Shown here one piece after another: positions 44,176-61,854 of a DNA stretch of 64,000 bases. The notes beneath the pieces were generated by a model. It saw only the letters and a program-made list of their open reading frames with translations, ran no database searches and was not told the origin of the DNA. The stretch lies in assembly GCA_020439745.1 (NCBI GenBank), contig JAGQSC010000019.1, forward strand, positions 248,001 to 312,000. The letters are read 5' to 3'. The DNA comes from Acidobacteriota bacterium (GTDB lineage Bacteria; Acidobacteriota; Holophagae; Acanthopleuribacterales; Acanthopleuribacteraceae). Position numbers and translations under genes: made by a program. Position 1 is the first letter of the stretch, and every line of letters begins with the position of its first letter.

Positions 44176-44399
44176 CCCAAAAACACTTCTTTTTTGCTTT
44201 ATGGACCACATGCCAAGGTGATGGGCAGGCATGTAGGAGTCGGTAGAACTTAGCGAAAAAGTCACATGGGTTTCCTTGTTCAATCGCGTAAGCTGCGCGT
44301 TCGCAGCTATGAATGCGCATTTATTGCTTGAGTCTGGAGGTTACAGAACCGATACTATCTAACAGAAGCCTAACAGAAACCTCATATCGGGCTAACTCC

Positions 44400-45047
44400 A
44401 TGACGTTGATACTCGCACTCAGTTCGCTTTTCCTTTCCGACCTGGACGTCGATGCGCATGGGGTCATGTTTGAAGCCCGGTACGCTCAACTCAAGAACGC
44501 ATATGTCAGGGGTGAGCCTCAGGAAAACACCACTGTGACAGAGGTATCGCTTCGCTCTGGCGAACACGCAGAGTTTAGAATAAGCCGCTATTTCTGGTCC
44601 CTGAATAGCATGGACCAGAGAAGTATCTTGAATCACGAACTCATGCACATCCGTGATCTGGCCAACCGAACGCTGCAAAACTCCCTCAGGGGTCTACCTC
44701 CTGAGTTACGTGAAGCCGTATTAGAGATAAGGGCGATCGTGTTTGCGCAAACGCAAAAGGAGTGGATCACTGCAACACCCAAAACACGCAATGCCGACCT
44801 CGATTTGTTGTATAAGTCGTGGGAAGTTGTCGACCGCTGGGTGCGTCACACCCCTGATACGTTGGCAGGACAACCCTTGGAAACCCTCACAGCGCGTCTC
44901 GACGTGCGTGACCTGGCCAGTTGGGTTCGGACACAGCGCATGCAACAACTTAGGTCCCTGTTGGCTTTAGACCTTGAGGTGATTCCACTCGCTGCCCTGG
45001 CCGTTGGTGAACAATCGGATCGTTGGCTGGCAGCACAGCAGCCCTAA
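44400..45047 (+). CDS. Exported HExxH protein, putative small metalloprotease
   Basis: A 215-residue protein. Residues 1-~19 look like a short signal peptide (MTLILALSSLFLSDLDVDA). A zinc-protease-type motif HELMH lies near residue 80 in NHELMHIRDLANRT, after a helix of DQRSILN. No third ligand is certain; the Glu of LREAVLEIRA ~25 residues on is a candidate. The upstream in-frame start at 44313 would put the hydrophobic segment inside the protein, so ATG 44400 is preferred, although its ribosome site is weak. No close family recognised. Its stop runs into the A-tract of the opposing terminator. Confidence 0.62.
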   Translation: MTLILALSSLFLSDLDVDAHGVMFEARYAQLKNAYVRGEPQENTTVTEVSLRSGEHAEFRISRYFWSLNSMDQRSILNHELMHIRDLANRTLQNSLRGLPPELREAVLEIRAIVFAQTQKEWITATPKTRNADLDLLYKSWEVVDRWVRHTPDTLAGQPLETLTARLDVRDLASWVRTQRMQQLRSLLALDLEVIPLAALAVGEQSDRWLAAQQP

Positions 45048-45106: not shown

Positions 45107-48100
45107 TCATTCCACGAATACTGGTACGACTACGTACAAGTATCCAGGTGACACGCCAGGAGGCGTACCACGAAGGAATACAGCCTCTGAAGGCTCAGAG
45201 GAACGAACTTCTATGACTGACCCGGGTTCGTCCATTAGCACATCACCCAGAACCTGAAGCATTTTCTGGTTGGGACCCAAGTCAGAAGTCAATGTAGTCG
45301 TCGCCAGAACGGTTCCACCTGTGGACCATTGCGTGACGGTTACAGTGGCTGGGCTGTCACCGCGATTGACCAGCGCCAGTCCATCGAACACCAAGTCAGA
45401 TTCGCCCTGGTAGATGCGGAACAGATTGGCTTTTCGCACCGACTCGTTGAGTTCAGCAGAAGCACCGGACCCATTCACTCGGTAGGAAGCGGTTACGATG
45501 ACATCGTTATTGGCCGTTACTTCGATGTGACTAACCGGTTCATTGCCAAATAAGTCACTCGTGAGCACGCGGCTATAGTCATCACCGGGCACGTCCATGG
45601 TCATGGGCGCCATGGCGCTACCGTCGGCCAGATAGGGTTGCAGGGTGACCTGTGCAGCAGATTGGCCCTGGTTGAGCATCCGCAACTCCGTGCGGAACCC
45701 GCCGTCAGGTCGTGTGATGTGACCCAACAAACGATCGCCTGGTACCGTTGTGAAAAAGCCGAGGTGGCCGTTCTGTGAAAGTGCTGTCCAACCAGCAATC
45801 CAGAGCGGACTACCTGGCTCAAATGCACCTCGATAAGGTTCGTTCATGAAGAACGTGTCCTGGAGTGGGAACGCGCCCATCGCAGCGGGACCCGAACTAG
45901 AAGGCCTGGGGTCGAGTCCCCCATTGGCGACACGACTCACACCACCTAACAACGGGTTTGCAATGGTGTTGCTGTTAGCCACCAGATGATCGGCCACAAA
46001 GGACTGTGGTGCGATGGCCTCGATGGTGTTGCCGTTTCCAAACTGCCACCAGAGGTTGTTGACCATTTTCAGATCACCGTTTTCCAGTCGAACACGACTG
46101 TCATCGCCACTTTCCAGGTCCTCCACAGAAATGCCTTTGCCATCGTTGGCACCGTTGTACTCTGTGATAATGCTATTGACGTAGGTGCCACCGGAATTAT
46201 CGCGGAAGATAATGGCTTCGGAACCGTCGCCTTGTGGGAAGGCATTGATGCCCGGTCCGATGTAGGTGGCATGAGAGATCTGGGGTGTTGAATAGGGCTC
46301 GGCAGTTTCTTGAATGGTACCGCCATCATGCTCGCCGATACGACCAGCGTTATCGGTGCCCTGAATCGCAAACCAGAATTGGTTCTTGCCGCGCCAGCCT
46401 TCATCCCAATCAGCGCTATCGTCGCCGCAGAATGCCATGACGAGCCATTTGGTGTTCACCGTGCCGCCAAACCATTCCACACCGTCATCCAAATTGGCGT
46501 AGATTTCCACGTGTTCGATGATGGTGCCACTTCCCACGGCGCCTAATGTCAATCCGTTGATTTCATCGCCAGGTCCCAACTCAGCTCCACCATGACGAAT
46601 AGACACATAGCGCAAAACGCCCGAGTTATCGGTGTCGTCATCGCCGCCATAAGCAGCGCGGGCTTCACCTGAAGGAATACCTTCGATTTGACCTTCTACA
46701 CCGCGATTGGTGGTCGCGCGACCTAACAGAATAAGACCGCCCCACAATCCGCGATCAGACCAGGTCAGATCATTGGGATTCTGAACGTCATCCGATTCGG
46801 CCGTGAAAATGATGGGGTTTTGAGCGGTACCGTTGGCCTGAATTTGACCGCCACGAGCAACAATCAATGCTGATGCATTGTCGCTGTTTGAAGGGGTTTG
46901 CTTGCCCTTAATGACCGTGCCAGCCTCGATGATCAAGGTGGCGCCATCTTCCACAAACACAAAGCCATCTAGCAAGTACTCGTTATTGGCCGTCAATTGC
47001 AAAGTTTCGCCAGCGTTGATGGACTCGTCGGTCAGTACCACGGTTTCTGATGTGCGTAACAAGTGGCCGGTTTGTGAAAGTGCGGTCCAGCCTTCGAGCC
47101 AAGTTGGCCCATCCGGTGCAAATGCGCCTAAATAGCCTACAGCCGTAAAGAACGGGTTACCGGGGATCTGTGCACCAGCAGCCGCGGGACCGCCGGTTGA
47201 AGGGCGGGGATCCAGGCTACCGTCATTGATGCGGCTCACCGAATTCAGTTGTGGATCGGCGATCGCGTTGACGTTTGCCGCCAAGTGCGCAGCCACAAAA
47301 TCCTGCGGCGCAATATCGGCCAGCGTATTGCCATTACCGAATTGCCACCAGATATTGTTGGCTAGAACCAATTGGCCCGCTTCAAGACGCACACGACTAT
47401 CGTCGCCGCTCTCAAGATCTTCGACGCTAATCCCTTTTCCGTCGTTGGCACCGTTGTATTCGGTGATGATGCTGTTCACATAGGAACCACCCGAGTTGTC
47501 ACGGAAAATAATGGCTTCTGAACCATCGCCTTGTGGGAAGGCATTGATCCCAGGTCCGATATAGGTGGCGTTGCTAATGGTGGGCAAGCTGTAGGGCTCA
47601 GCCGTTTCTTGAATGGTGCCACCATCATGTTCACCGATACGACCCGCATTGTCGGTTCCTTGAATCGCAAACCAGAACTGGTTGTTACCTCTCCAGCCTT
47701 CGTCCCAGTCGGCACTGTCATCGCCACAAAATGCGATCGCCAACCACTTGGTGTTCACGGTACCGCCAAACCACTCAACGCCATCGTCCAGGTTTGCGAA
47801 GATCTCAACATGCTCAATAGTTGTGCCTGAACCTACTGCGCCAAGAGTGAGACCGTTGATCTCATCGCCAGGGCCCAATTCAGCACCACCGTGCCGAATC
47901 GATACATAGCGCAATACACCGGAGTTGTCCGAGTCATTGTCACCACCGTAAGCCGCACGAGCCTCACCGGAAGGGATACCTTCGATTTGCCCTTCGACAC
48001 CGCGGTTTGTTGTGGCTCTGCCAAGTATGATGATGCCACCCCAAAGGCCGCGATCGGACCAGGTCAGATCGGATGGGTTGGAAACGTCGTCAGATTCTGC

Positions 48101-48397
48101 TGTGAAGATGATGGGCTGTGCTGCCGTCCCTTGGGCCATGATCATTCCGCCCCGGGCAATGATTAGAGCAGAAGAGTTATCGCCTGTGGTTGGGGCGGCA
48201 AGGCCCTTCACAACGACACCCGGTTCGATAACAATGGTTGCCCCTTCTTCGACAAACACAAATCCGTCGAGCATGTAGGTGCTTCCCGAGGTTAGGGTTA
48301 AGGTTTCACCGGCATTAATGGACGCATCGTTGATCACGGTCTGCGCCTGGACTGCGACAGCAGCCCATACCACCAGTGTCCCTATGATTCTGGACAT
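45107..48397 (-). CDS. Large secreted beta-helix-like protein with two 433-residue repeats
   Basis: A 1096-residue exported protein of unknown function. Residues ~1-18 are a signal peptide (MSRIIGTLVVWAAVAVQAQ). Two tandem units follow, each with INAGETL, YMLDGFVFVEEGAT-type beta-strand motifs, GLWGGIIILGRATTNRG, DNSGVLRYVSIRHGG and GDGSEAIIFRDNSGG, consistent with a right-handed beta-helix. A third part (~880-1096) is a beta-sandwich-like tail with TRPDGGFRTELRMLNQG. A perfect AGGAGG before ATG 48397 sets the start. It is encoded 33 bases after the TonB receptor on the same strand and ends in a strong terminator, so the two form an operon; it may bind the ligand at the cell surface. No catalytic motif seen. 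Confidence 0.85.
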   Translation of the reverse strand: MSRIIGTLVVWAAVAVQAQTVINDASINAGETLTLTSGSTYMLDGFVFVEEGATIVIEPGVVVKGLAAPTTGDNSSALIIARGGMIMAQGTAAQPIIFTAESDDVSNPSDLTWSDRGLWGGIIILGRATTNRGVEGQIEGIPSGEARAAYGGDNDSDNSGVLRYVSIRHGGAELGPGDEINGLTLGAVGSGTTIEHVEIFANLDDGVEWFGGTVNTKWLAIAFCGDDSADWDEGWRGNNQFWFAIQGTDNAGRIGEHDGGTIQETAEPYSLPTISNATYIGPGINAFPQGDGSEAIIFRDNSGGSYVNSIITEYNGANDGKGISVEDLESGDDSRVRLEAGQLVLANNIWWQFGNGNTLADIAPQDFVAAHLAANVNAIADPQLNSVSRINDGSLDPRPSTGGPAAAGAQIPGNPFFTAVGYLGAFAPDGPTWLEGWTALSQTGHLLRTSETVVLTDESINAGETLQLTANNEYLLDGFVFVEDGATLIIEAGTVIKGKQTPSNSDNASALIVARGGQIQANGTAQNPIIFTAESDDVQNPNDLTWSDRGLWGGLILLGRATTNRGVEGQIEGIPSGEARAAYGGDDDTDNSGVLRYVSIRHGGAELGPGDEINGLTLGAVGSGTIIEHVEIYANLDDGVEWFGGTVNTKWLVMAFCGDDSADWDEGWRGKNQFWFAIQGTDNAGRIGEHDGGTIQETAEPYSTPQISHATYIGPGINAFPQGDGSEAIIFRDNSGGTYVNSIITEYNGANDGKGISVEDLESGDDSRVRLENGDLKMVNNLWWQFGNGNTIEAIAPQSFVADHLVANSNTIANPLLGGVSRVANGGLDPRPSSSGPAAMGAFPLQDTFFMNEPYRGAFEPGSPLWIAGWTALSQNGHLGFFTTVPGDRLLGHITRPDGGFRTELRMLNQGQSAAQVTLQPYLADGSAMAPMTMDVPGDDYSRVLTSDLFGNEPVSHIEVTANNDVIVTASYRVNGSGASAELNESVRKANLFRIYQGESDLVFDGLALVNRGDSPATVTVTQWSTGGTVLATTTLTSDLGPNQKMLQVLGDVLMDEPGSVIEVRSSEPSEAVFLRGTPPGVSPGYLYVVVPVFVE
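45764..48340 (-). repeat. Intragenic tandem duplication (two units, 1299-base period)
   Basis: Unit A is 47060-48340 and unit B 45764-47044. Equivalent residues are exactly 433 apart from the first motif to the last, so there is no net insertion or deletion. Over about 225 central residues I count 13 amino-acid differences, while many third codon positions differ between the units at the DNA level. Confidence 0.88.
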
Positions 48398-48430
48398 GAT
48401 TCCTCCTGTAATGACCATTTCCACAAAGGG

Positions 48431-51298
48431 TTATGGCTTGAAACTAAAACTGAGCGAGAACGACCTGCCTTGCGTGTACCGTCGTTGAATGTAGTCCTGG
48501 CCTTTGAACGACTGAACCACTTCCACAGGGGCATCCAAAAGATTTTTGGCCGTGATCTTCAGCCTGAAATCTTGATAAATGCGTTGCGAAAAGGTGACAT
48601 CCAACGAGTCGCGCGGTTGTTCAAAGGCACTGGGCGCGGCGCCGACGCCTACTTGATCAAGACGCTCTCCGAAAACGTTGTAAAAAATTGAAGCCGACGT
48701 ACCCCAATCAATGTGGTCGTAATGCGTTCCCAAATTAATGATATAGGGCGACTGCCCCTGCAGCTCGCGCGAAGGGCTGGCCTCAGGATCGAATTGTAGA
48801 AGCAATTGGTATTCCTCGTCGGGAATATCCACTTCTGAATCGATGAGCGTCACGTTGGCGCTCACGCTAAATACTGAGGACCCACCACGATCCACGACGA
48901 GTTGATCAAAACGATGTCGAACCTCAAACTCAATCCCCTTGACTTGAGCTGAAGGTACGTTGAGATAGGTCTGCTCACCGAACTCCGAGGCAAAACGAAT
49001 GTTATAGGCGCGCTCTATGGGGTTGGTGAAGTCTTTGTAGAAAGCACTAACAGCATACACTTCCTCGGCACCCTTGAACCATTCCCAGCGAATATCGAAG
49101 TTATCGATGATCGTGCGTTTCAAATCAGGGTTACCGACAAAAATGCCATCGGCCAAAAAGTCGTAGCTGGCATAAGGTGCTTTTTCCCGAAACGTGGGCC
49201 TGGCGAGCGTCCGGCCATACGAGGCGCGCACATTCATGCGATCAGTCACCGCATAAAGGAAATGAAGGGCAGGCAACCAATCTTTCTCGTCCAAAGATCC
49301 GCTTGTTTGCTCGTTATACACGTCCAACTGGGTGGTTTCATGTCGCAGGCCTGTGATGAGCTTCCACTTTGAACTGAATGGCAATTCCAACTGAACGTAG
49401 CCTGCCTGCACATCCTCAGAACCGTCATAGGCGCCGCCCCGTGAGTCGGGCGCCAACTGAATGACATTCCCAAATTGGTATCGCCCCGTGGTTTCGTCGA
49501 AACCAATCAAACCCACGTTTTCGGGCCCAAAAAAGTGTTCGGCATCGCCATCGTACCTGACGGTGTCGCTGACGTACTCATAACGCAGCTCGTCAAACGA
49601 GCGCTCTTTGTTTTGCAATAGAAGGCCGACCTTCAATTTGCCAGGCAAACCCTCCCACTGTTCGAAGGGCAGAACGACATCCATTTTCAGGTTCTCCGAT
49701 TTTTCTTCCAGAGACCTGAAATAACGAGCGGGGTTACTGTAGATGGATGGCGCAATCGAGTAGATCTGAGTCGGTTCACCATTCACGACGCGATTTGAAT
49801 AGTTGTTGGTGAATATGCGCGTGTCCGGCTCGTCCTGCGATGTTTTCGCCGAAGACGCGGACCAGCTCAGAACCGCTCCCTGGAACCCAAGATAATGCTC
49901 ACCGGTCAGTTGAAATGATGTCAGGTTGCGTTCTGCGTATTTCATGACGCGGTTCTCGAGGAACGCATTGTCAGATGAGAATTGCTCTGGCCATCGACCC
50001 ACAGCGTAAGATGAGATGGACTCACCATTTTGGTTGTAGATGGTATTGAAGCCGATCTGGTGGCTGGCATTGAGCATCAAATTCAGGTTGAGGATTCCAC
50101 CCCAAGCCACCGTATCCTCGCCATACTCCCCTACGAAGTCACTTTGATTGGTGAGCATCTGGTTGCTGGCGGAGGCATCCGTCAATTTCCAACGCGACAT
50201 GGTTAAGTCATCGCGTTTTTCGTATTTGCGGCTGTAACTGAGACTGGTGAGGTAACCCAGCGTCATGTCGCCCAAGCTGCGCTGGTTACCTAGAGACACC
50301 GACATCCCTTCATTGAGAGGTGCCTCCTGATGGGAGGGTGCCATCACCGGCTCAAAAGAGCGCGAGATAGCATCCAGTTGCTGGGCTAATTGACCATCTT
50401 GGCGGGCTTGCACAAGGTCCGGTACAGACGCAGCACCGCCTTGTAGCATCGACGGAAGCGCACGTAGCCCATCATCCCGGCCAAGCCAATCACTTCCGCT
50501 CCCGTCATAGGTCAGAAAATCATCCTTGAGCGTCGTGCTGGTGTTGTAGGACGAACTCAAAGAAATGTTCATCGTAAAGCTCGATGGGTATTCTGGCGTT
50601 CCAATATCTACCAGACCACCCGAAAAGTTACCCGGCTTCTCTGGGGTGAACGTTTTCTGCGTCACAATGCTCTCCAATACATTGGAAGGAAACAGATCTG
50701 CAGGAAACGCGTTGCTATCTGGATCAGCGGTAGGCAGTTCTACACCGTTAAGGTGCGTGGTGGTGTAGCGATCGCCCAATCCGCGCACATACACGTACTT
50801 ACTGCCAACCACAGAAGCACCTACCACGCGTGTCATCGCATCCGCAGCATTACCGCCGCCCGATCTGGCAATCATTTCTGAACTGATGGCATCCGAAATG
50901 GCACTGGACTTTTGACGATGTCTCAAGAGTCCTGCCTCTGAATCTTCCAGCAACTCGGCCGTCACGACCAACGCTTCCACCAAGTCAGTGTCCAACTCCA
51001 TGGCCAGTTCCAATACAACAGGGTCCTTATTCACCACGACATCAGTAACGGTCACGGTACGAAACCCGTCCATGGCCGCCGTCACGCTATAGGTCCCCGG
51101 ATCCAAACCTACCAAGCGAAACGCGCCATTTACATCTGTAAACACAACTTGGGCACCATCGCCCAAGCTGACTGCAACCGCAATCAAGTCGTCGCCATAA
51201 GCTGCATCCACTACTTTTCCCCTGATCTCGCCTGCATGCAGCACAGACGAAACCCCTAATACGGCGCCAATAATGGTCGCCAGCACATTACGAGTCAT
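48431..51298 (-). CDS. TonB-dependent outer-membrane receptor with carboxypeptidase-like N-domain
   Basis: A 955-residue receptor. Signal peptide residues 1-~22 (ATIIGAVLGVSSVLHA); a CarboxypepD-regulatory-like domain ~23-105 (GKVVDAAYGDDLIAVAV); a plug domain ~130-245 with AADAMTRVVGASV, YVYVRGLGDRYTTTHLNG and FSGGLVDIGTPEYP; then the beta-barrel, ending in an aromatic strand SFSLSFSFKP. It would import a large or scarce ligand with TonB-ExbBD energy. The VRGLGDRY plug subtype is the one I associate with receptors paired with secreted partners. ATG 51298 follows GAGG by six bases; the TTG four codons upstream lacks this. The ligand is unknown. Confidence 0.93.
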   Translation of the reverse strand: MTRNVLATIIGAVLGVSSVLHAGEIRGKVVDAAYGDDLIAVAVSLGDGAQVVFTDVNGAFRLVGLDPGTYSVTAAMDGFRTVTVTDVVVNKDPVVLELAMELDTDLVEALVVTAELLEDSEAGLLRHRQKSSAISDAISSEMIARSGGGNAADAMTRVVGASVVGSKYVYVRGLGDRYTTTHLNGVELPTADPDSNAFPADLFPSNVLESIVTQKTFTPEKPGNFSGGLVDIGTPEYPSSFTMNISLSSSYNTSTTLKDDFLTYDGSGSDWLGRDDGLRALPSMLQGGAASVPDLVQARQDGQLAQQLDAISRSFEPVMAPSHQEAPLNEGMSVSLGNQRSLGDMTLGYLTSLSYSRKYEKRDDLTMSRWKLTDASASNQMLTNQSDFVGEYGEDTVAWGGILNLNLMLNASHQIGFNTIYNQNGESISSYAVGRWPEQFSSDNAFLENRVMKYAERNLTSFQLTGEHYLGFQGAVLSWSASSAKTSQDEPDTRIFTNNYSNRVVNGEPTQIYSIAPSIYSNPARYFRSLEEKSENLKMDVVLPFEQWEGLPGKLKVGLLLQNKERSFDELRYEYVSDTVRYDGDAEHFFGPENVGLIGFDETTGRYQFGNVIQLAPDSRGGAYDGSEDVQAGYVQLELPFSSKWKLITGLRHETTQLDVYNEQTSGSLDEKDWLPALHFLYAVTDRMNVRASYGRTLARPTFREKAPYASYDFLADGIFVGNPDLKRTIIDNFDIRWEWFKGAEEVYAVSAFYKDFTNPIERAYNIRFASEFGEQTYLNVPSAQVKGIEFEVRHRFDQLVVDRGGSSVFSVSANVTLIDSEVDIPDEEYQLLLQFDPEASPSRELQGQSPYIINLGTHYDHIDWGTSASIFYNVFGERLDQVGVGAAPSAFEQPRDSLDVTFSQRIYQDFRLKITAKNLLDAPVEVVQSFKGQDYIQRRYTQGRSFSLSFSFKP

Positions 51299-51447
51299 GT
51301 CTAACCTCAACTAAATTTCCTCACGACGCAGAGTTTAGAAAGCTAATGTTGGAGAATCGTTAGTGATCGGTATTTGCTTGGTATGAATTTGGTAAGCCCA
51401 AAACACTGGCGGAGACATACGCCCGGCCCTAGATTGAAAAAAAGAGG

Positions 51448-52773
51448 ATGTACGCGATGTGGATCATGTTGGTTTGGGGGATGGGTGGATGCCCACTGAC
51501 TTGGGACCAATGGCAAGCACCATTGGGACCACCTTGGGACACCAACGGCAATGGCCTGTTGGATACTTCCGACCTCATTGGTTGCCTGTTCAACGAAACG
51601 GACAACGTGACGTTTGTGAATCAATTGCTTGATGACAGTTTTGTCCATGGACAAGGTTTAGAAATCGCGGATATCGACGGGGATCTGGACATGGATGTCA
51701 TGGTGGCCTACAGCCTCTCTGACCAAGTCGTCGCGTACATCAACGGCGGCGACAGCACAGGCGGCGGTACGGGTACCACATGGACCACAACCGAAATCTC
51801 GCTGCCCGGCGCCATTGTGGCCACCGACGTGGCCATCGCGGATTTTGACGGGATTAATGGACCTGATGTAGCGGCCGTAGGTCTTTTCGACCGCAATATT
51901 GGCTTTTCATCCGCAGGAGAAGTCACATGGTATGCCAATCCGGGCGCCGCGGGTTCCTGGACCACGAACCCCATCACCGGACTCACGTTTTGGGGGGCAT
52001 TGCGCCTGGAGGCAGGTGATCTGACCGGTGAGGGACGACCCGACCTGGTGGTGGCCGCCATAGAGGCCACAGACGGCAGCGGAACGCCTCAACCTTCGGG
52101 CATTTGGTGGTTTGAGAATCAAGGTGGTGCTCCCTTGGTTTGGTCAACCAGACGCGCCGTTGACGGTGCATTGCAGCACTGCAATCGCGCAGTTATCGTT
52201 GATGTGGATCAGGACGGCATCCTGGATATTGTCGGGGCGGGGACATATGCCGACGAGTTGGCTTGGTACGAAAACACACGCACGGGTATCAATGGCAATC
52301 CCATTTTCAGCAAGCACCTAATCGCAACCTTGGATCAGCCCCTAGACATCATGGCGACACAAATGGACGGCGATCCCACACCTGAAGTGGTGGTGGGTTA
52401 TGCCCACATCAATGGTTTTGGTGCACTAGCTTGGTTTGACGCGCCCCCGGATTCGACTCAATTGTGGACGATTCACATCATTGATCTCAACTATGGGGTA
52501 GGTGAGGTCCATTTCTGTGCCGGGTTGTTCAACAACGACAGCTTGACTGACATCGCAACCACCAATTTCGATATCTCTTCAGGCCACGCCTACCTAAGAG
52601 ACGGCAGTAGTTGGAGTCCGATCATTCCATTGGTGCCAGCGCCATTCGGTATGAACCACATCACCTGTGGCGACGTCACGGGCGATGGACGCCCCGATCT
52701 GTTGACCACCACATATGGTAACTCCTCCGTGGACCAGGTAGATATCTGGATTAATACGCCTGCTTCCGATTGA
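51448..52773 (+). CDS. FG-GAP/VCBS repeat protein with dockerin-like calcium loop
   Basis: A 441-residue exported-looking protein. The first ~16 residues are hydrophobic (MYAMWIMLVWGMGGC), possibly a short lipoprotein-like signal. Residues D31-L47 form a calcium-loop motif DTNGNGLLDTSDLIGCL of the dockerin/EF-hand type. From ~70 on there are repeated FG-GAP calcium motifs: IADIDGDLDMDVM, IADFDGINGPDVA, GDLTGEGRPDLVV, VDVDQDGILDIV and GDVTGDGRPDLLT, expected to fold as a beta-propeller. No enzyme domain is seen. It lies directly upstream of the secretion operon (51-base gap), divergent from the TonB receptor. Confidence 0.85.
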   Translation: MYAMWIMLVWGMGGCPLTWDQWQAPLGPPWDTNGNGLLDTSDLIGCLFNETDNVTFVNQLLDDSFVHGQGLEIADIDGDLDMDVMVAYSLSDQVVAYINGGDSTGGGTGTTWTTTEISLPGAIVATDVAIADFDGINGPDVAAVGLFDRNIGFSSAGEVTWYANPGAAGSWTTNPITGLTFWGALRLEAGDLTGEGRPDLVVAAIEATDGSGTPQPSGIWWFENQGGAPLVWSTRRAVDGALQHCNRAVIVDVDQDGILDIVGAGTYADELAWYENTRTGINGNPIFSKHLIATLDQPLDIMATQMDGDPTPEVVVGYAHINGFGALAWFDAPPDSTQLWTIHIIDLNYGVGEVHFCAGLFNNDSLTDIATTNFDISSGHAYLRDGSSWSPIIPLVPAPFGMNHITCGDVTGDGRPDLLTTTYGNSSVDQVDIWINTPASD

Positions 52774-53045: not shown

Positions 53046-53574
53046 CACACTGGAAATCATGCTGGTCGTGGACTCACTTCCCCGAGGTGGTCAATGTCTT
53101 TCGCACTGGGACGCTGTGCCTCTAGGCTACCGGACCGCGGGAAAAGAAAATCTGGCCTGCTTGGATGAAGTCACTAGCAAATCCGCCGTTTCCATGATTG
53201 AGTGGCGTCTGATTTTGGCGACCATGACCCCGAATCCGGATTATCCCGAGACGGATATCGCGGGCCCCATGCGCAACATGTTGAGATTTGAGCACTATTA
53301 CATTCAAGCAGTCACAGCCGTCACTCTGGGCCACCACATTCCCAAATCCATCCCCTTAGGTCAATTGGACCTGGAAGGTGTCCCCCAAAAGGTAACCGGT
53401 GAAATCAATGTGATTGACCCATTCGTCATCCGAGGCAGAGAAAGTGGATCTGTCTTGGTGCGCACCAAGGTCCAATTGCGTCATGATCGCGAGTTTGTGC
53501 TTGGCTTGGGTCGACAAGACGAGCGTGAATTGAGTATGCTCTCCGCGAGGTATCGTCAGGTGGGTCATGGTTAA
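53035..53574 (+). CDS. Unknown protein of the secretion operon, possibly 3' half of a split gene
   Basis: A 179-residue protein without its own signal or membrane segment. It begins MGGNTLEIMLVVDSLPRGGQC, with later HIPKSIPLGQLDLEG and QLRHDREFVLGLGRQDE. No domain recognised. A periplasmic location would make sense only if it is joined to the anchor encoded just upstream. The end overlaps gspF by 8 bases, so it belongs to the operon. Confidence 0.6.
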   Translation: MGGNTLEIMLVVDSLPRGGQCLSHWDAVPLGYRTAGKENLACLDEVTSKSAVSMIEWRLILATMTPNPDYPETDIAGPMRNMLRFEHYYIQAVTAVTLGHHIPKSIPLGQLDLEGVPQKVTGEINVIDPFVIRGRESGSVLVRTKVQLRHDREFVLGLGRQDERELSMLSARYRQVGHG

Positions 53575-54775
53575 TTTCCGCGCCAAGGTTGGCACCGGGA
53601 ACGGCGAAATCGCCATTAAGGAAGCCGTAGGGTCTTCAACCGTTGAGATCAAACGCAAACTGGCGGAAGAAGGTTATTTTGTCTTCGATGTGAAACGCGT
53701 GTGGTCACTCGGCGACTTGAATCTGGTTGGCAAACGGGTTTCATCTCGTCAGTTTAACCTCTTCAACCGCGAGTTTCGCGGGCTTGTCAAAGCAGGGATG
53801 CCGATTGCTGAGAGCCTGCGCATGGTGCTGGAACGCATGCCCCAAGGCCCACTTCGGGCGTTGGTGGGTCAGGTGCTTGATCGCGTCGTTCAGGGCGAGC
53901 CATTGTCTGCTGCATTCAAAGGGTTTGAAGGTTTAATCCCATCCTACTACCCTGCTTTGTTGTTCGCCGGCGAACAGTCCGGTCACCTACCCGACGTATT
54001 GGAACAATTCATAGACCAGGAATCCCGGTTGCAAAACATGCGCCGCAAATTCCGCAACGCCTTGACATACCCGGCGTTCCTGATGATCGTGGGCATCGTT
54101 GCCCTATATGTAATTCTGGGTCGTGCCATGCCCCAATTCGCGGGTTTATACCGCGACTCTCAGCAAGATCTGCCCATCGTAACCGAATGGGTCATGGCTC
54201 TGGGCGACCTGGTGAGCCGTCATGGGACTTTGATGGCGCTCGGGTTCGTATTGCTTGCGGTAGCTGTCGCATTGTTTTCACGTACGGCGTGGGGCAAGCG
54301 AAAACTAGATCTGTGGCTGTGGCGGATCCCCTTCTTGGGTTCGCTGTGGCGTTTGCAGAACCAGAACGCGTTCGCCTGGACCATGAATATGTTGATCACA
54401 GGCGGTATCCCAGTGCCGCAAGCGTTGTCCATTACCGCACGATCGGCGGCATCGCCCATATTGGCTGACCACATCGAAGCCGCTCAAGCAGCAGTCGAAC
54501 GCGGATCCAGTCTGGAATCCGCCATTGACACACACCTGCCCTTCGAGTCGCTAGTCGCTGATATGGTGCGCATTGGTGAATCCACCGGTACCTTGGATGA
54601 AATGTTTGCCTATATCGCGGAGAATGGCGAAGAGCATGCGAGCGATAAGCTAGAGATGATCAGCAACGTCATTGCGCCCTTCATCTTGTTACTTGTAGGT
54701 CTTACCATCGCTGCATTGGTCATTGCCATGTACTTGCCTATGTTCGGCGTCGCCGACCTTATTTCGGGGGATTGA
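53567..54775 (+). CDS. gspF: Type II secretion inner-membrane protein GspF
   Basis: A 402-residue platform protein with two T2SSF domains. Residues ~70-190 hold the first, with FNREFRGLVKAGMPIAESL and LFAGEQSGHLPDVLEQ; ~270-390 hold the second, with WTMNMLITGGIPVPQAL and RIGESTGTLDEM. Three membrane helices lie around 165-190, 220-245 and 370-395. The front ~60 residues carry the usual start with VEIKRKLAEEGYFVFDVK. It anchors the GspE ATPase. ATG 53567 overlaps the upstream gene; gspE follows with a 1-base gap. Confidence 0.94.
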   Translation: MVNFRAKVGTGNGEIAIKEAVGSSTVEIKRKLAEEGYFVFDVKRVWSLGDLNLVGKRVSSRQFNLFNREFRGLVKAGMPIAESLRMVLERMPQGPLRALVGQVLDRVVQGEPLSAAFKGFEGLIPSYYPALLFAGEQSGHLPDVLEQFIDQESRLQNMRRKFRNALTYPAFLMIVGIVALYVILGRAMPQFAGLYRDSQQDLPIVTEWVMALGDLVSRHGTLMALGFVLLAVAVALFSRTAWGKRKLDLWLWRIPFLGSLWRLQNQNAFAWTMNMLITGGIPVPQALSITARSAASPILADHIEAAQAAVERGSSLESAIDTHLPFESLVADMVRIGESTGTLDEMFAYIAENGEEHASDKLEMISNVIAPFILLLVGLTIAALVIAMYLPMFGVADLISGD

Positions 54776-54776
54776 T

Positions 54777-56345
54777 TTGGGTGCCCACGCACAGACACTA
54801 GCCACACAGCACGGCCTCAGCTATCGAGACCTCAGTGACTTTGATCTGAGCGGCGATTTGCTTTCCCTGATGCCCGTTGAGTACATGATTAAGTACACCT
54901 GTCTGCCTCTTGGCGTTGCGGGCAACCAGCTGCTGGTAGCGCTGGCTGATCCCGAGTTGTTGTCCCACCTGGACGAATTGGAAATGCTGGCCGAAAGGCG
55001 GGTGACTCCGGTCATAGCCGATCGGGAACACATTGAACGCATCCTCAAAGAGTCACAGAGTTCACGTCGTGTATTACAGGACGCCACGTCGGATTTCAGA
55101 CTGCAATTCGAGTCCACCGACGACGATGATGAGGTACTGGATGCATCCCGTCTGGTCAACGATGGTTCCCCTCTGGTACGACTGGTAGACACCACCATCT
55201 ACAACGCACTCGAACGCCGAGCCTCTGACATCCACATAGAGACCGCTGCTGACCAGGTTCGCATCAAATTTCGAATAGACGGTGTTCTGTATCAAGCACT
55301 AGAACCCATTGACAAGCGACATCACGTCACCATCATTTCGCGCATCAAGGTCATGTCACAATTGGATATTGCTGAAAAACGAATCCCGCAAGACGGAAGA
55401 TTCAAGCTACGGATCAAGGGACGTGTCATTGATTTTCGCGTGTCCATCATGCCAACCATCCATGGTGAGGATGCTGTAATCAGAATCCTGGACAAGGAAT
55501 CCACCACCGAAAATTTCACATCCTTGAACCTGGAGGTCCTGGGTTTTGAAGGTGATGTGTTGCGGCAACTGCGGCGCTCCATCCGTGAACCTTATGGCAT
55601 GGTGCTCGTGACGGGACCCACGGGCAGCGGCAAAACCACTACCCTATATGCCTGCCTCACTGAGATCCAGAACCCCGAAGACAAGATCGTGACCATCGAA
55701 GATCCCGTGGAGTATCAACTACCCGGTGTGACGCAAATACCCATCAACGAAAAGAAGGGCCTGACCTTTGCCCGTGGTCTTCGCTCCATTCTGCGTCACG
55801 ATCCCGACAAGATCATGGTCGGCGAGATCCGCGACACCGAAACAGCCCAGATTGCCATTCAATCCGCATTAACGGGCCATCTCGTTTTCACCACAGTCCA
55901 CGCCAATAACGTGATTGATGTCATTGGCCGCTTTGTAAATATGGGCGTGGACTTGTACAACTTTGTATCCGCATTGAATGGGGTTGTCGCGCAGCGACTC
56001 GTGCGCCTGATTTGTGCGCGCTGTAAACAGCCTCAATCCATTCCCGCTCATGAACTGGAAGCATCCGGCCTGTCGCAAACAGGATTCAGGGAGTTCGCCT
56101 TTTTTCACGGGAAGGGTTGCTTGAGCTGCCACGGAACTGGTTACCGAGGTCGTACGGTGATCGCAGAAATGCTGCAAGTGAATGATGATGTGCGTCAAGC
56201 TATCGTGGAACGACGACGTATTGCAGAACTCAAACAGTTGGCACAACAAACGGGGATGCGCTTCCTTCGCCAAGCAGCACTGGACCTCCTCAAGAAAGGA
56301 TCGACGACGTTGCACGAAATCAACAAAGTCACATTCATCGACTGA
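54777..56345 (+). CDS. gspE: Type II secretion ATPase GspE
   Basis: A 522-residue hexameric assembly ATPase of the T2SS/PilB class. N-terminal domain ~1-130, then the motor: Walker A TGPTGSGKTTTLYA, Asp box ITIEDPVEYQLPG-like (VTIEDPVEYQLPG), Walker B IMVGEIRDTETAQ, His box TTVHANN, and the zinc tetracysteine CARCKQ...CLSCHGTGYRGR near residue 430. I chose TTG 54777 because GGGGGA lies 5-6 bases upstream and it begins 1 base after the gspF stop; earlier in-frame starts lie within gspF. Confidence 0.94.
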   Translation: MGAHAQTLATQHGLSYRDLSDFDLSGDLLSLMPVEYMIKYTCLPLGVAGNQLLVALADPELLSHLDELEMLAERRVTPVIADREHIERILKESQSSRRVLQDATSDFRLQFESTDDDDEVLDASRLVNDGSPLVRLVDTTIYNALERRASDIHIETAADQVRIKFRIDGVLYQALEPIDKRHHVTIISRIKVMSQLDIAEKRIPQDGRFKLRIKGRVIDFRVSIMPTIHGEDAVIRILDKESTTENFTSLNLEVLGFEGDVLRQLRRSIREPYGMVLVTGPTGSGKTTTLYACLTEIQNPEDKIVTIEDPVEYQLPGVTQIPINEKKGLTFARGLRSILRHDPDKIMVGEIRDTETAQIAIQSALTGHLVFTTVHANNVIDVIGRFVNMGVDLYNFVSALNGVVAQRLVRLICARCKQPQSIPAHELEASGLSQTGFREFAFFHGKGCLSCHGTGYRGRTVIAEMLQVNDDVRQAIVERRRIAELKQLAQQTGMRFLRQAALDLLKKGSTTLHEINKVTFID

Positions 56346-57109
56346 TGAGTCCCTGGTTTACGATGACACCCACAGGCATGCAAGGCAGCCTTCCCCACTT
56401 CTGGGAGACTGAATGGACCGTGCAGGGCCTACCCGACGCGAACCTGATGTCCGAATCATTGGCCGCCCAACAGGTGAGCTCGGGCAGAGGGGTCCTGTTG
56501 GTAGACGATGCGTGGGCAAGACCCTTGAGACTGGCGCCCGAGGAGAACATTTCCCGACAAGAGATAGGTTCCCTCGTGCAGTGGAGAATGAAGCGCTATC
56601 TGCCCTACGCCGTAGATCAAGCCACACTTCGTTACATTGTCTTGCGCGACAAACACATTCTCGCCACCAGCCTTCCCACGCCCTGGGTGAACTCTGTCAT
56701 GGATGTGTTCAGCCAAGTTCAAGTGCAACTGGGATATATTGGCCCCATTTCATCGGTTCTGTTTGGTCATCGCCGATACGCTGGCCAAACCGTCCTTTTC
56801 TTATCGAACACGACCTACACCGTGGTCGCCACCGACCGAAAACGCAAAGTGATCGATTTCCGTCATCGTCATTTGCCCACCACACCTCATCATGACCTGG
56901 ACCTACAAACGCTGGTTCAAAGTGATCTAGCCCAGGTGCCTGGACAATCTTGGGTACTCGCGAGCTTGTCGTCAGAAAGGGATGTTTTCCTAGCGCCCCT
57001 TGCTCAAGCCCTCGGTCATGATTCACGCAGCGTTCATGTGGAAGCCGCACATGGCTCCTTGATCCAAAGAGTCATGCAATTGCTGCATGCGGGGGCTGTT
57101 TTGACATGA
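56345..57109 (+). CDS. PilM/GspL-like cytoplasmic assembly protein
   Basis: A 254-residue soluble protein in the position of PilM or the cytoplasmic half of GspL. The segment LVQWRMKRYLPYAVDQATLRY is a family-like feature, with GYIGPISSVL and VLFLSNTTYTVVAT as later core strands. No clear actin-type ATP motif is present. Its start shares the last base of gspE; the end overlaps the next gene by 4 bases. The call rests mostly on context. Confidence 0.68.
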   Translation: MSPWFTMTPTGMQGSLPHFWETEWTVQGLPDANLMSESLAAQQVSSGRGVLLVDDAWARPLRLAPEENISRQEIGSLVQWRMKRYLPYAVDQATLRYIVLRDKHILATSLPTPWVNSVMDVFSQVQVQLGYIGPISSVLFGHRRYAGQTVLFLSNTTYTVVATDRKRKVIDFRHRHLPTTPHHDLDLQTLVQSDLAQVPGQSWVLASLSSERDVFLAPLAQALGHDSRSVHVEAAHGSLIQRVMQLLHAGAVLT

Positions 57110-57651
57110 GCCATCCATTAAATTTCTCACCAAAACCCTTTCGAGGCCACAACTATTGGCTATACGCCATCATGAGCATGAATGTGATGATTTTGGCGCT
57201 TTCTTTGTGGACCGCTTGGGACGGAGCTCAACTTCGTGCGGAAAACAAGCAATCGCACCAACAATTGGCTGAGCTGCAAAACGAAAAAGCCGTGGTAATC
57301 GCAAGCCTGAATCAAGCCCTGGGAGACTTGGGGCAAGTCGACATCAAGAATTACGACCGGCAGATGGAACAATACGGCTCCATTCAGAAGGCATTCAATA
57401 CAGACTGGGTCCAACTGTTGGACGACCTCGCTAATCTCGTGAATCCCGATGTGCGAATTATTCGCGTTCAGACATCTGATTCAAGCCAACTAAGTCTTCG
57501 CGGCAGCGCACGAACAAAAGAGGCGCAACTTTCGTTCATTCGCGCACTGCAAAGCCACAGCTCATTCAGTCGTATCCGCTTCGATTCGGAAACTTACGCC
57601 GCGCGGAACATCACCTTCGAACTACAGTTCGCTTATCGAGGTGGCTCATGA
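57106..57651 (+). CDS. PilN/GspL-like inner-membrane assembly protein
   Basis: A 181-residue bitopic protein: a short cytoplasmic front (LNFSPKPFRGHNYW), one helix (~17-37), a coiled-coil (~42-70) and a periplasmic ferredoxin-like domain with LLDDLANLVNPDVRI and SLRGSARTKEAQLSFI. This arrangement is that of PilN or the C-terminal half of GspL. ATGA overlaps on both sides. Confidence 0.75.
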   Translation: MSHPLNFSPKPFRGHNYWLYAIMSMNVMILALSLWTAWDGAQLRAENKQSHQQLAELQNEKAVVIASLNQALGDLGQVDIKNYDRQMEQYGSIQKAFNTDWVQLLDDLANLVNPDVRIIRVQTSDSSQLSLRGSARTKEAQLSFIRALQSHSSFSRIRFDSETYAARNITFELQFAYRGGS

Positions 57652-58202
57652 CCCACTGGCTACGCAAGCCAATCGGTCAGATTGTGCTTTTTGCCGTGCT
57701 TGCATTTGTCTGGTTCCTCACCTGGTCCTGGGCAACAGACGAACGGATCCTTGCGGCGGACGCTGTAGGTCAAATGGATGCTGCTCGACTCGAATTGAAA
57801 CGCGCACAGCGCGATGCCGATCGTGTGGAAAAACTGGCGATCAAATTTCAAAACAATCAAACCGAGATCCAATATCTAAGGGATCGGTTCCTCACACAAA
57901 AGAACGAACGCATGATCGCTATCTCTGAGGCCCTTCATCAACTGGGTGCCACTTACAGTGTTGAGATTAGTGAGGTTCGTTACGCATCCACGGAAAGCCC
58001 AAGCGCGGACCTTGAACTCTACCGAGTCGAGCTACCCATTCAAGGTCGATACAGAGATATTCGCAATTTCGTGAATGATATTGAACGTTCCGACCTACAG
58101 TTGATGGTCACCCAGATTTCCGTCGAAGAGTCTGCCCAGTTTCAAGGGGCTGTAAATGCACGATTGAGCCTGGCCACCTATTTCGAGAGGAGAGGGTCAT
58201 GA
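57648..58202 (+). CDS. PilO/GspM-like inner-membrane assembly protein
   Basis: A 184-residue bitopic protein: one helix at ~10-27, a long coiled-coil (~35-90, with QMDAARLELKRAQRDADRV), and a periplasmic domain whose GRYRDIRNFVNDIERSDLQL motif is typical of PilO. It would pair with the upstream PilN-like protein. Overlaps both neighbours by 4 bases. Confidence 0.78.
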   Translation: MTHWLRKPIGQIVLFAVLAFVWFLTWSWATDERILAADAVGQMDAARLELKRAQRDADRVEKLAIKFQNNQTEIQYLRDRFLTQKNERMIAISEALHQLGATYSVEISEVRYASTESPSADLELYRVELPIQGRYRDIRNFVNDIERSDLQLMVTQISVEESAQFQGAVNARLSLATYFERRGS

Positions 58203-58771
58203 AACGTGTGCACGTATTTGGCCTGATTGCCGGCCTTCTGCTGGTGGCTAATCTGTGGTCCCGCATGGGTGGGAGCCAAAGCGAGTTCGGCTGGACACAG
58301 GACGGCGTAGCCCTCGACGACCCCAGAGTCTCCCGCCTTCTGGACAAGATGGAACGTCACCCTACACTCCAGTTCTCCACCAAGTCGGATTCGGCGGCGG
58401 CGGAAGCATCGCCACGAAACCCGTTTGAATACGGCATCGATGCACGCTTAGAAGCCGAACGGGCACAACAACTTGAGGCCATGCGCATTCAGGCAGAAAT
58501 TCCCACGATCGAATCGGATCCTGTTCCCGAAGTGGAGCCCGAACCGGAGTTTGACGGTACCATCCTGGGCGTATTCGAGGATACATATGCCCAAAGAATG
58601 CGCGTCGCACTGAAATATGACGACGTGGTGTACGTACTTTCGGCCGGTGACCGCATTGAAGATATCTATGAAATTCGAAGCATCGATACCGAACAGGTGA
58701 TTGTCCGGCACCTGGCGCAAGCACACGATATCCGGATCCCTTATGCAGAAGAAAGCAATGTCCGTTGGTAA
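58199..58771 (+). CDS. GspC/PilP-like periplasmic linker protein
   Basis: A 190-residue protein with an N-terminal helix (~5-22), a charged, Pro/Glu-rich linker (~60-120) and a C-terminal homology-region-like beta domain (FDGTILGVFED, VYVLSAGDRIEDIYEI, VIVRHL). GspC and PilP link the inner-membrane platform to the secretin, and the next gene is the secretin. It overlaps the PilO-like gene by 4 bases. Confidence 0.75.
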   Translation: MKRVHVFGLIAGLLLVANLWSRMGGSQSEFGWTQDGVALDDPRVSRLLDKMERHPTLQFSTKSDSAAAEASPRNPFEYGIDARLEAERAQQLEAMRIQAEIPTIESDPVPEVEPEPEFDGTILGVFEDTYAQRMRVALKYDDVVYVLSAGDRIEDIYEIRSIDTEQVIVRHLAQAHDIRIPYAEESNVRW

Positions 58772-58781
58772 GGAGCCCTTG

Positions 58782-61019
58782 ATGCGTTATCTGATGATTG
58801 GAATATTGGCCTTGGGTCTGGCAAATTGTGCCGCTCGAAAGGTGACGGCAGATGCTAAAGCGGCCAGTGACAGTGGTCAGTGGGATCGGGCTTACAAATT
58901 GTGGAGCCAGATCCTGGAGGAAAACCCCAACGACGCCAAAGCCAAAATCCAGCAGCAGCGCGCTCGCGTCAGTGCGTCCTTAACCCACTTGCAACGCGGA
59001 ATCCACTATCTCAACAAACAACAACTGGACGAGGCATTGTTCGAATTCAATCTCTCACTCGGATACGACGAAGCCAATCAGACCGCCATCGAAATGCGCC
59101 AGAACGCCATCCAGGCCCTTGAAAAGAAGCAATCTGAAAAACAACCCGTCGAAGAAGAGGACGATCTGGGCTACTCCAGCTTTCCCGCTTTGGAGCCCAC
59201 CACGTGGGAACCGATCAACTTACATTTTCCGCAACCCAAAGATATCAGAGACATTTATGTAGCGATGGGCCGCGCATACGGTATCAATATCCTTGTGGAC
59301 AGCAAGATCCGCTCGGACAAGATATCCATTGATCTACGCAACCTGGACTTCCTTAAAGCGCTCGATACCCTGATGGTACTCAACAGGCACTTTTTCAAGA
59401 TCATCGACCGCAATACCATCATCATTCTTGAGGACAACAAACAAAACAAAGAGCAGTACACCAATCAGGTCATCCGAACTTTTTATCTGTCCAACATCAC
59501 GCCCAATGATTTGAAGAACCACTTGCGAACATTAGGCGAAATGAAAGAATACGCAGCCAATGACGAGTTGAATGCAATCACCATCAAAGGGACGCCCGAG
59601 CAAATAGCCCTCGCTGAGCGCATCATCACCACCAACGACAAGCCTCAGCCAGAAGTGGTCATTGAAGTGGAGTTGTTGGAAGTCAACAAAACATCCATGC
59701 GTCAAGTGGGGCTGCTCCCTGTGTCCACCGTGGACGGACAGAGTGGATATTCGGTGGGTGTCATTGCTGACCCCCTCGACCGCAGTGACGATGACGTGGG
59801 ATTGCGTGGCTTTTTCCCAAATTTGCGCTCTGAGGATCTGTTGACCATTGTCCCTGCTGTAGCTATTAACTTCCTCAAGGAAACCGGCGACTCGAAACAG
59901 GTCGCGAACCCACATCTGAGGGTAACGGCCGGTAAAGAAGCCTCCATTTTGATTGGACAGAAGATCCCTATCGCTTCAACATCCTTCACACCAATAGGGT
60001 TACAAGGAACGGGTTCATCACCTGTCAGCCAGTTAGGTGGCCAACCTCTAACCACCTTCAATTACAACGACATCGGAATCAAGCTGTCGCTCACGCCTCG
60101 TGTCCACCATAATGACGAAATCACGCTCACCCTGGACTTGGAAGTTTCGTCGGTCATTTCCCAATCGCTGCAGCCCATTCTCGGCCAACGAAAAGTGGCA
60201 TCAACGATTCGATTAAAGAATGGGGAAACCAACGTTTTGTTTGGGTTGTTAACCAACGATGAGCGCAAATCACTAACCGGAATCGCTGGATTAGCCGACA
60301 TTCCTGTCATTGGGCGGCTGTTTGCAAACGACGATAGCGTGATCACTCAGACAGACATTATTCTTACACTGAAACCCATCATCGTTCGCGGGCACAATAT
60401 TCGTAACTCTGATCGGGACTCCTATGAGATTTCATCGCTGTCGCTGACCTCCCTTTATGGCAACCGAAAGCTCAACTCGCAAGCAAAAGCGATGGACTTG
60501 GCCGTACCTGATCCTGAGCCATCGGTTCGAGAACCCTTTTATCCTGAGGAGAGTCGCGCACCCCAAGCTGAACCCGAAGAAACGATGGATGAGGAATTAC
60601 CCACACCAGCCGTGCTTTCGTTTACGCCCTTACAATTGGCCGCCCGCCAGGACGAGGCGTTTGACGTGCAAGTTTTCGTGACCAATGTGGACCAACTCAA
60701 ACGCGGGGAGATTGCCATCCAATACGACCCCGCCGTCCTACAGATTGACGCTGTCGACGTGGGCAATTTCAATACGGGCGGGCAAAAACCCCTGTTGACC
60801 CCCGCTTGGAACCATGAAAAAGGACGCGTGAGCCTGGTCATCTACCAGCGAGAAGAGGGAACCGGATTCAGCGGTTCAGGTATTCTTGCGAACCTCCGTT
60901 TCAAAGCCATAGGGCCCGGAAACGGCACGTTGACCTTTGTTCGAACGTCATTGATGGACCCAGCAGGTAACGAATTGCCTGTGGAAGCCCTTGAAGCCAT
61001 GTATGAGGTTGCGCCTTGA
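58782..61019 (+). CDS. gspD: Secretin GspD with C-terminal cohesin-like domain
   Basis: A 745-residue outer-membrane secretin. Lipoprotein signal MRYLMIGILALGLANCAARK (acylated Cys ~17), TPR-like helices ~25-120, N0/STN-type domain ~145-220, NolW-type N1 ~230-300, secretin core ~320-560 including VASTIRLKNGETNVLFGLL and IPVIGRLFANDD. After a Pro/Glu linker (~575-605) residues ~605-745 form a cohesin-like beta-sandwich: FTPLQLAARQDEAFDVQVFV, AIQYDPAVLQIDAV and GSGILANLRFKAIG. Only one N domain of the usual three precedes the core. ATG 58782 gives the signal peptide; the frame extends further up inside the preceding gene. It ends in an ATGA-like overlap with the pseudopilin gene. Confidence 0.93.
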   Translation: MRYLMIGILALGLANCAARKVTADAKAASDSGQWDRAYKLWSQILEENPNDAKAKIQQQRARVSASLTHLQRGIHYLNKQQLDEALFEFNLSLGYDEANQTAIEMRQNAIQALEKKQSEKQPVEEEDDLGYSSFPALEPTTWEPINLHFPQPKDIRDIYVAMGRAYGINILVDSKIRSDKISIDLRNLDFLKALDTLMVLNRHFFKIIDRNTIIILEDNKQNKEQYTNQVIRTFYLSNITPNDLKNHLRTLGEMKEYAANDELNAITIKGTPEQIALAERIITTNDKPQPEVVIEVELLEVNKTSMRQVGLLPVSTVDGQSGYSVGVIADPLDRSDDDVGLRGFFPNLRSEDLLTIVPAVAINFLKETGDSKQVANPHLRVTAGKEASILIGQKIPIASTSFTPIGLQGTGSSPVSQLGGQPLTTFNYNDIGIKLSLTPRVHHNDEITLTLDLEVSSVISQSLQPILGQRKVASTIRLKNGETNVLFGLLTNDERKSLTGIAGLADIPVIGRLFANDDSVITQTDIILTLKPIIVRGHNIRNSDRDSYEISSLSLTSLYGNRKLNSQAKAMDLAVPDPEPSVREPFYPEESRAPQAEPEETMDEELPTPAVLSFTPLQLAARQDEAFDVQVFVTNVDQLKRGEIAIQYDPAVLQIDAVDVGNFNTGGQKPLLTPAWNHEKGRVSLVIYQREEGTGFSGSGILANLRFKAIGPGNGTLTFVRTSLMDPAGNELPVEALEAMYEVAP

Positions 61020-61468
61020 AGCGAGCCTTTACCTACTTGGAATTGATCATCGCGTTGGTGATCCTTTCCTTGTTGGCAGGTGCAGCCATGCCTGCCACCC
61101 AAAAAATTGTGAAGCGAGGTAAGGAACTGGAACTTAAACGGGCCTTAATGGAGGTGCGCACATCCATCGACCGCTTCAAGCGCATGGCTGATGCTGGCGA
61201 GATTCAGGTGGACAACATCGATCAGTTGGGATATCCGGCCGATTTTGACCAAATGCTCGAAGGCGCTACCTTGACAAAGCAACAGGGCAAGATCATGAAG
61301 TTTCTGCGCCGTATCCCCGTTGATCCCATGACCGGCGAAGCGAAATGGGGTATGCGCTCGGTTCAAGACGATGTGGACAGTCCTTCCTGGGGCCAGGAAA
61401 ACCTCTTTGATATCTACTCGCTGAGTGACGGCGTGGCACTGGACGGAACGGAGTACAGGACATGGTGA
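61016..61468 (+). CDS. GspG-like pseudopilin 1
   Basis: A 150-residue type II pseudopilin: MKRAFTYLELIIALVILSL, with cleavage expected after Ala4 and the Glu+5 of the mature protein present. Ala at -1 and Tyr at +3 are uncommon; Gly and Leu/Thr are usual. The C-terminal domain has RRIPVDPMTGEAKWG and ends ALDGTEYRTW. The GspG calcium-loop style is retained in part. It overlaps gspD by 4 and the next pseudopilin by 7 bases. Confidence 0.87.
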   Translation: MKRAFTYLELIIALVILSLLAGAAMPATQKIVKRGKELELKRALMEVRTSIDRFKRMADAGEIQVDNIDQLGYPADFDQMLEGATLTKQQGKIMKFLRRIPVDPMTGEAKWGMRSVQDDVDSPSWGQENLFDIYSLSDGVALDGTEYRTW

Positions 61469-61854
61469 AGAGACGCGGATTTACCTTGCTGGAGATCATG
61501 GTGGTTCTTACTGTCATCGCATTGATTGCGGGCCTGGCAGCCTCGACACATCGCAATCGCGTGCGTAAGGCTCGTGAAACTGTCTTGCGTCACAATCTCG
61601 CCCAAATACGTCTCACGTTGGACGCCTACAACACCGACAAGGGCCACTACCCCGAGAGCCTTGGGGTCCTAGTGGATGAAGGCTATTTGCGCAGCATGCC
61701 GGAAGACCCCATGACCACTCGATCCGACACATGGGTGGAGGTGTTACTGGACACCATTGACGACGAAGATTCGAGCTACGAGCCCGGTGTTTTTGATGTG
61801 AAGAGTGGTAGCGACCAAACCGCACTGGATGGCACTGAATACCGTGAATGGTGA
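61462..61854 (+). CDS. GspG-like pseudopilin 2
   Basis: A 130-residue pseudopilin with canonical prepilin site MVKRRG|FTLLEIMVVL, helix, and the GspG body LDAYNTDKGHYPESLGVLV and MPEDPMT. It ends ALDGTEYREW, nearly the same as pseudopilin 1, so the two are paralogues. One is likely the major subunit. The 3' end overlaps the next gene by 26 bases. Confidence 0.9.
   Translation: MVKRRGFTLLEIMVVLTVIALIAGLAASTHRNRVRKARETVLRHNLAQIRLTLDAYNTDKGHYPESLGVLVDEGYLRSMPEDPMTTRSDTWVEVLLDTIDDEDSSYEPGVFDVKSGSDQTALDGTEYREW

Follow-up and report, generated by a model that had tools for sequence, protein, structure and literature searches.

The stretch of DNA analysed here (the window; 64,000 nucleotides, positions 248,001 to 312,000 of contig JAGQSC010000019.1, assembly GCA_020439745.1) comes from a 5.1-Mb Acidobacteriota genome, whose family includes Sulfidibacter corallicola and Acanthopleuribacter pedis. 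It contains a two-gene operon on the minus strand, encoding a TonB-dependent receptor and, starting 33 nucleotides further on, a protein built of two similar units. The open reading frame (ORF) of the receptor spans 48431-51310(-), with an ATG at 51298. Pfam recognises in the receptor (48431-51298) a CarboxypepD_reg N-terminal domain (1.2e-12), a Plug domain (7e-08) carrying the YVRGLGDRYTTTHLNG motif and a beta-barrel (TonB_dep_Rec_b-barrel, 9.5e-36); its score with NCBIfam TIGR01782 is lower than the cut-off. The ORF of the two-unit protein was listed at 45107-48424(-), with 1105 residues. The ATG at 48397, located behind an AGGAGG sequence, is a better start and gives a protein of 1096 residues (45107-48397). 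A signal-peptide-like N-terminus is followed by unit A (47060-48337), unit B (45761-47038), 80% identical to unit A, and a third domain of about 210 residues (45110-45745; residues 895-1105 of the 1105-residue ORF). No sequence match to the units was found in Pfam, NCBIfam or the PDB, the latter searched with a single protein and with a profile. An intrinsic terminator strongly matching the consensus (GGCGGGC-TTCG-GCCCGCC then T8, 45071-45054(-)) ends the operon, as stated in a preliminary description made from the letters of the window alone.

Relatives of the units were collected using an alignment of eight units as the query. We confirmed 255 relatives and analysed the best 79 loci, which belong to Acidobacteriota, Ignavibacteriota, Bacteroidota, Calditrichota, Balneolota, Rhodothermota, Zixibacteria, Gemmatimonadota and others; further homologues were found on plasmids of Gammaproteobacteria and Alphaproteobacteria. 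Fifty-two unit genes were informative, being flanked on either side by 1.5 kb of sequence or more, and 48 of these had a VRGLGDRY-type receptor gene on the same strand within 1.5 kb. In Bacteroidota, the receptor is mostly downstream of the unit gene; in Acidobacteriota, Ignavibacteriota and allied groups, it is mostly upstream. The homologues are therefore linked to receptors of this type. The preliminary description had proposed a two-domain ligand-capture protein serving the receptor. The conserved adjacency in many phyla strongly supports the idea, derived from gene order, that the receptor and the unit protein act as partners; capture itself is a possible role, and an enzyme role is also compatible with the conserved acidic residues described below.

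Phosphate genes were repeatedly observed beside the homologues. Among the 79 loci, neighbours included a PhoB-type response regulator in 27 cases, a PhoR-type kinase in 24, PstS in 4 and PstC/A/B in 2. The neighbouring PstS, PstA, PstB and PstC proteins pass their family models, and the kinase of one locus (L051) passes the NCBIfam PhoR model (666 over 500). For the two regulators shown in full, the PhoB model was the best one, yet the scores were below the equivalog cut-offs. On an Alteromonas plasmid, the gene order is phoB-phoR-pstS-oxygenase-U-receptor-DUF3450-ExbB-ExbB (U, unit gene). On Pseudoalteromonas plasmids it is ExbB-ExbD-TonB-TPR-U-receptor, with a dedicated ExbB-ExbD-TonB set ahead of U.

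The promoters of the receptor genes point in the same direction. In relatives, they carry Pho-box-like repeats with an 11-bp period, CTAAC-N6-CTAAC or TTAAC-N6-CTAAC. A perfect repeat core was present in 25 of 69 homologous operons (36%) as compared to 17 of 470 control upstream regions (3.6%; p 3e-14). In the source genome, the pst operon (L127:5717-15000), where the genome has its sole PstS match, is preceded by a perfect CTAAC-N6-CTAAC repeat, CCTAACGAAAACCTAACATTAG. Its genes (putative porin-pstS-pstC-pstA-pstB-phoU-phoB-phoR) were named from their order and sequence, and PstS by its family model. Upstream of the receptor of the window, a Pho-box-like 11-bp direct repeat with one mismatch, ACTAACGATTCTCCAACATTAG, is visible at positions 51343-51364(-); it is third in rank when a matrix derived from five other sites is applied to both strands of the window. 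The pattern CTAAC-N6-CYAACA, in which Y was chosen with the receptor-promoter site in view, has 6 matches in the genome, including the pst promoter, the receptor promoter and a site at 44359, next to the operon and within 44358-44391(+). The exact sequence CTAAC-N6-CTAACA is found at two sites of the genome, the pst promoter and 44358-44391. Because the genome total of the CYAACA pattern does not exceed that of the reversed control pattern, it is the location of the sites that carries evidence. Overall, the Pho and Pst neighbours and the promoter repeats narrow by inference the class of the ligand, for which the preliminary description had proposed nothing, and phosphorus is the most likely class. 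The site at 44358-44391 is itself a perfect triple Pho-box-like repeat (CTAAC-N6-CTAAC-N6-CTCAT) placed before a convergent gene ending at 45047. As it falls inside the start of the listed ORF (44313-45047), the true start of this gene is probably downstream. The gene encodes a HELMH motif (possible metalloprotease) and has no Pfam match.

The homologues lead to a family that is already known. ElpS (CC0170) of Caulobacter crescentus is made under phosphate starvation and located on the outer membrane, and the type II secretion system (T2SS) releases it; the published gene order is elpS-cc0171-T2SS, where CC0171 is a TonB receptor (PMC2996285). Loci of Sphingomonas and Indioceanicola show the same order (U-receptor-gspC..J), and the window units match the proteins encoded there, in the elpS gene context, with E values of 1e-53 to 1e-66. 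Overall, alpha and gamma proteobacterial proteins were matched at 1e-53 or better. In Flavobacterium johnsoniae, FI-FIII are low-phosphate-induced lipoproteins described as related to ElpS and as putative plant-glycan binders or hydrolases, and FI is the most abundant exoprotein under low phosphate (PMC8115612). FI and FII adjoin TonB-dependent transporters (TBDTs; Fjoh_0545/3857), and FII, annotated as IPR011050 (pectin-lyase fold), is part of the phoBR cluster (PMC8115612). Because of the gene order, the literature and the matches to the Sphingomonas and Indioceanicola proteins, we place the window protein in the ElpS / FI-FIII family, as a putative variant devoid of lipid anchor.

The operon resembles ElpS/CC0171 in combining a probable phosphate-starvation surface protein, related through the homologues to the same unit family, with an adjacent VRGLGDRY-type receptor. 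However, ElpS is a lipoprotein encoded beside T2SS genes, whereas the window protein has two units, no visible lipobox, an extra C-terminal module and its receptor upstream. With FI-FIII, the resemblance concerns the probable low-phosphate induction of a surface protein, the pectin-lyase fold (FII) and the adjacent TBDTs; FI-FIII are however lipoproteins, and tandem units are not reported for them (PMC8115612). In SusCD and PusCD systems also, a surface protein and a TonB-dependent transporter are encoded together, and PusCD is likewise induced at low phosphate. There, in contrast, the partner is a SusD lid and not a beta-helix, and the receptor is of the SusC/RagA type; in the window operon, no SusD match was found and the receptor scored 11.4 bits with TIGR04056 (cut-off 368).

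Extracellular alkaline phosphatase activity was found to be raised in association with ElpS overproduction (PMC2996285). The window protein could thus be an accessory factor stimulating a secreted phosphatase or holding it at the surface, as proposed for ElpS, the link with the receptor reflecting shared regulation only. We consider this improbable. In many phyla, almost every informative locus has the one receptor type next to the unit gene, whereas no phosphatase was recognised among the recurrent neighbour clusters of the homologous loci; conserved adjacency of the receptor with no recurrent phosphatase neighbour argues for a direct partnership between the unit protein and the receptor.

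The structure of a unit was predicted with AlphaFold2. An earlier model from 8 close units was poor (pLDDT 59) and was replaced by one using an alignment of 80 units, which gave a right-handed beta-helix with a pLDDT of 96.2 and a pTM of 0.95. Foldseek returned fold-level matches only, led by GH28 xylogalacturonan hydrolase, endopolygalacturonase, pectin methylesterase and Pel9A, with probabilities of 0.97-1.00 although the matches, which included tailspikes, were weak (E 3e-3 or higher, TM 0.3-0.4). With viral structures, only generic beta-helix proteins were obtained. The prediction and the fold matches agree with the surface beta-helix suggested in the preliminary description. Nine acidic residues (E159, D184, D185, E188, D206, D207, D210, E236 and D238) are invariant in the 80 units. 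Conservation of the GDEINGLT and QIEGIP peptides is partly biased, since both were used in the scan. For this reason, the acidic cluster was rechecked on plasmid homologues found by tblastn, independently of these peptides, and the nine residues were invariant in 12/12 of these units as well. This conservation suggests a metal or catalytic site.

These observations bear on whether the units are enzymes, that is, polysaccharide or phosphoglycan hydrolases or lyases, pectinase-like, freeing phosphorus-bearing fragments for import by the receptor. Pectin-acting beta-helix enzymes are indeed the best fold matches, the nine acids are invariant, and the N-x-D ... D-D spacing of about 22 recalls GH28. 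However, the resemblance to GH28 and other pectin-lyase-fold enzymes is that of a right-handed parallel beta-helix, with low TM-scores, no Pfam family match for the units and no recognised GHG/RIK motifs of GH28. The window protein has no Pfam GH28 or lyase match, and a single distant unit of the 80 gives Pectate_lyase at 1e-3. In addition, the literature found on ElpS and FI-FIII reports no hydrolase activity. We therefore hold the enzyme reading to be possible but rather unlikely. The acidic cluster and the fold do not decide between capture and cleavage. In our estimate, the chances that the unit binds a phosphorus-containing ligand are about even, and it is doubtful that it also cleaves this ligand.

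Units A and B are exactly 433 codons apart and share 340 of 433 residues, in agreement with the constant offset reported in the preliminary description. That description had counted about 13 differing residues among 225 central ones, with many synonymous changes. Our comparison of core codons 75-300 gave 15 codons differing in residue (210/225 identical) and 115 synonymous differences. In the core, dN is 0.07 and dS is at or near saturation (undefined with NG86; 2.2 with YN00); dN/dS thus amounts to at most about 0.03, well below 1. At four-fold sites, 63% differ between the units as compared to 72% expected for random codons. The earlier proposal of an old duplication kept under purifying selection, or of partial gene conversion, is supported, with both processes being needed. 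In the family, proteins with one, two or three units are found in several phyla, tandem units having arisen repeatedly. Three-unit proteins (L030, L032, L100, L105) occur in Bacteroidota, Ignavibacteriota and Gammaproteobacteria.

The likeness of A and B might also result from independent lineage-specific duplications. In trees of whole units, A and B of the same Acidobacteriota protein group together (96/97 for the window protein), a u1 clade is rejected (p-AU 0.0014), and the repeated origin of tandem units within the family goes in the same direction. However, when the window and Sulfidibacter proteins are compared, the N-terminal columns 1-78 show A-A/B-B pairing at 6 sites and the opposite at 1, whereas the remaining columns show A-B pairing at 39 sites and A-A/B-B at 2 (Fisher p 1.5e-5). 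Moreover, 63% of the four-fold sites of the Sulfidibacter protein differ in the N-terminal part as compared to 20-30% in the core (p 2e-4). Independent duplications therefore appear to be the less probable account, though the N-terminal pairing pattern may have arisen through convergence. In the window protein itself, 50% of synonymous sites differ at codons 185-310 versus 72% expected (p 0.002), and the contrast between N-terminal part and core at synonymous sites is not significant (p 0.18). Judging from these site patterns, the units were probably duplicated before the split from Sulfidibacter, with later homogenisation of the core by gene conversion. The simplest account would be that conversion took place more recently in Sulfidibacter and long ago in the window protein, whose synonymous sites would have become nearly re-saturated.

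The third domain of the protein, overlooked in the preliminary description, has about 25 matches in the same genome and is common to about 20 other proteins. Copies of this module (L108-L126), with the pattern HVT..GGF.T ... VFDG.A.VN ... LRGT.PG, are variously placed in secreted proteins; some follow signal peptides, others form C-termini, stand alone or are arranged in tandem. The module has weak similarity to DUF5719 and fits no curated family. That it acts as a C-terminal sorting signal was rejected because it also occurs directly behind signal peptides, on its own, or in tandem. By eye, no lipobox was seen in the window protein, the N-terminus of which, MSRIIGTLVVWAAVAVQAQTVIND, contains no cysteine. 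Among homologues of the FCB group, the 8/8 tested end in a sorting domain of the type IX secretion system (T9SS), and many have such a tail instead of a lipobox. Other homologues have a lipobox-like motif, called solely by regular expression. Neither a T9SS sorting domain nor a lipobox-like motif is present in the window protein.

A T2SS-like operon (53567-62419(+)) encodes GspF, GspE, PilM/N/O/P-like proteins, a secretin with a C-terminal cohesin domain and three pseudopilins. It begins 2.3 kb from the receptor, recalling the T2SS genes beside elpS in Alphaproteobacteria. A divergent gene for an FG-GAP repeat protein (51448-52773) is located in between. Linkage to T2SS genes as a conserved trait of Acidobacteriota was rejected, such genes not being seen beside the receptor operon in relatives.

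We consider it likely that the operon encodes a surface system of the ElpS type serving in phosphate starvation. At low phosphate, it would be switched on by a PhoB-type regulator, as suggested by the Pho-box-like repeat and the homologous loci. The two-unit beta-helix protein would be exported to the cell surface and work with the TonB receptor encoded just upstream. It would present or process a phosphorus-containing ligand, which the receptor would import with TonB energy. Units A and B would be two redundant functional copies whose likeness is maintained by purifying selection together with gene conversion, in line with relatives that have one, two or three units.

Several observations weigh against this interpretation. 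Cc0171 was reported to be constitutive, and its deletion left ElpS production unchanged (PMC2996285). The homology to ElpS is indirect, through the Sphingomonas and Indioceanicola proteins, and the literature found gives no measured ligand or binding for any family member. The operon is not a core need, because it is absent from the sister species G001. The repeat upstream of the receptor contains one mismatch, and different training sets give it different ranks (14 when the L022 site is left out; displaced when the pst site is). Finally, the operon has no adjoining Pho gene in the source genome, and in close relatives no such neighbour was recognised. This last point, together with an acidic cluster that could bind metal, would fit a receptor pair importing a non-phosphorus cargo such as a metal or a sugar; the Pho neighbours of the homologues would then be incidental, which we find very improbable. 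Tentatively, the unit could be a beta-helix module of a distinct kind that has a metal centre of nine acids and binds a phosphorus polymer or acts on it catalytically. It would have been expanded to two or three copies in several phyla, with gene conversion in some lineages, and would have interchangeable export parts (lipid anchor, T9SS tail, Acanthopleuribacteraceae module) and nearly always one type of TonB receptor.

The receptor system is real and conserved, and most likely belongs to the phosphate-starvation response; it is a tandem-unit variant within a known but poorly understood family. The ElpS / FI-FIII family had been described before, and the literature found gives no molecular function for it, although F. 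johnsoniae, when phosphate is exhausted, places more of an ElpS-like protein outside the cell than of any other protein (PMC8115612). Our analysis associates the family, in several phyla, with a single receptor type and with Pho genes. It also provides a confident predicted fold, with the nine acidic residues and the promoter repeat as testable points. The window member differs from the family by its tandem units, its lack of lipid anchor and its lineage-specific C-terminal module. The ligand, if found, would explain how a form of phosphorus is taken up across the outer membrane in many environmental bacteria.
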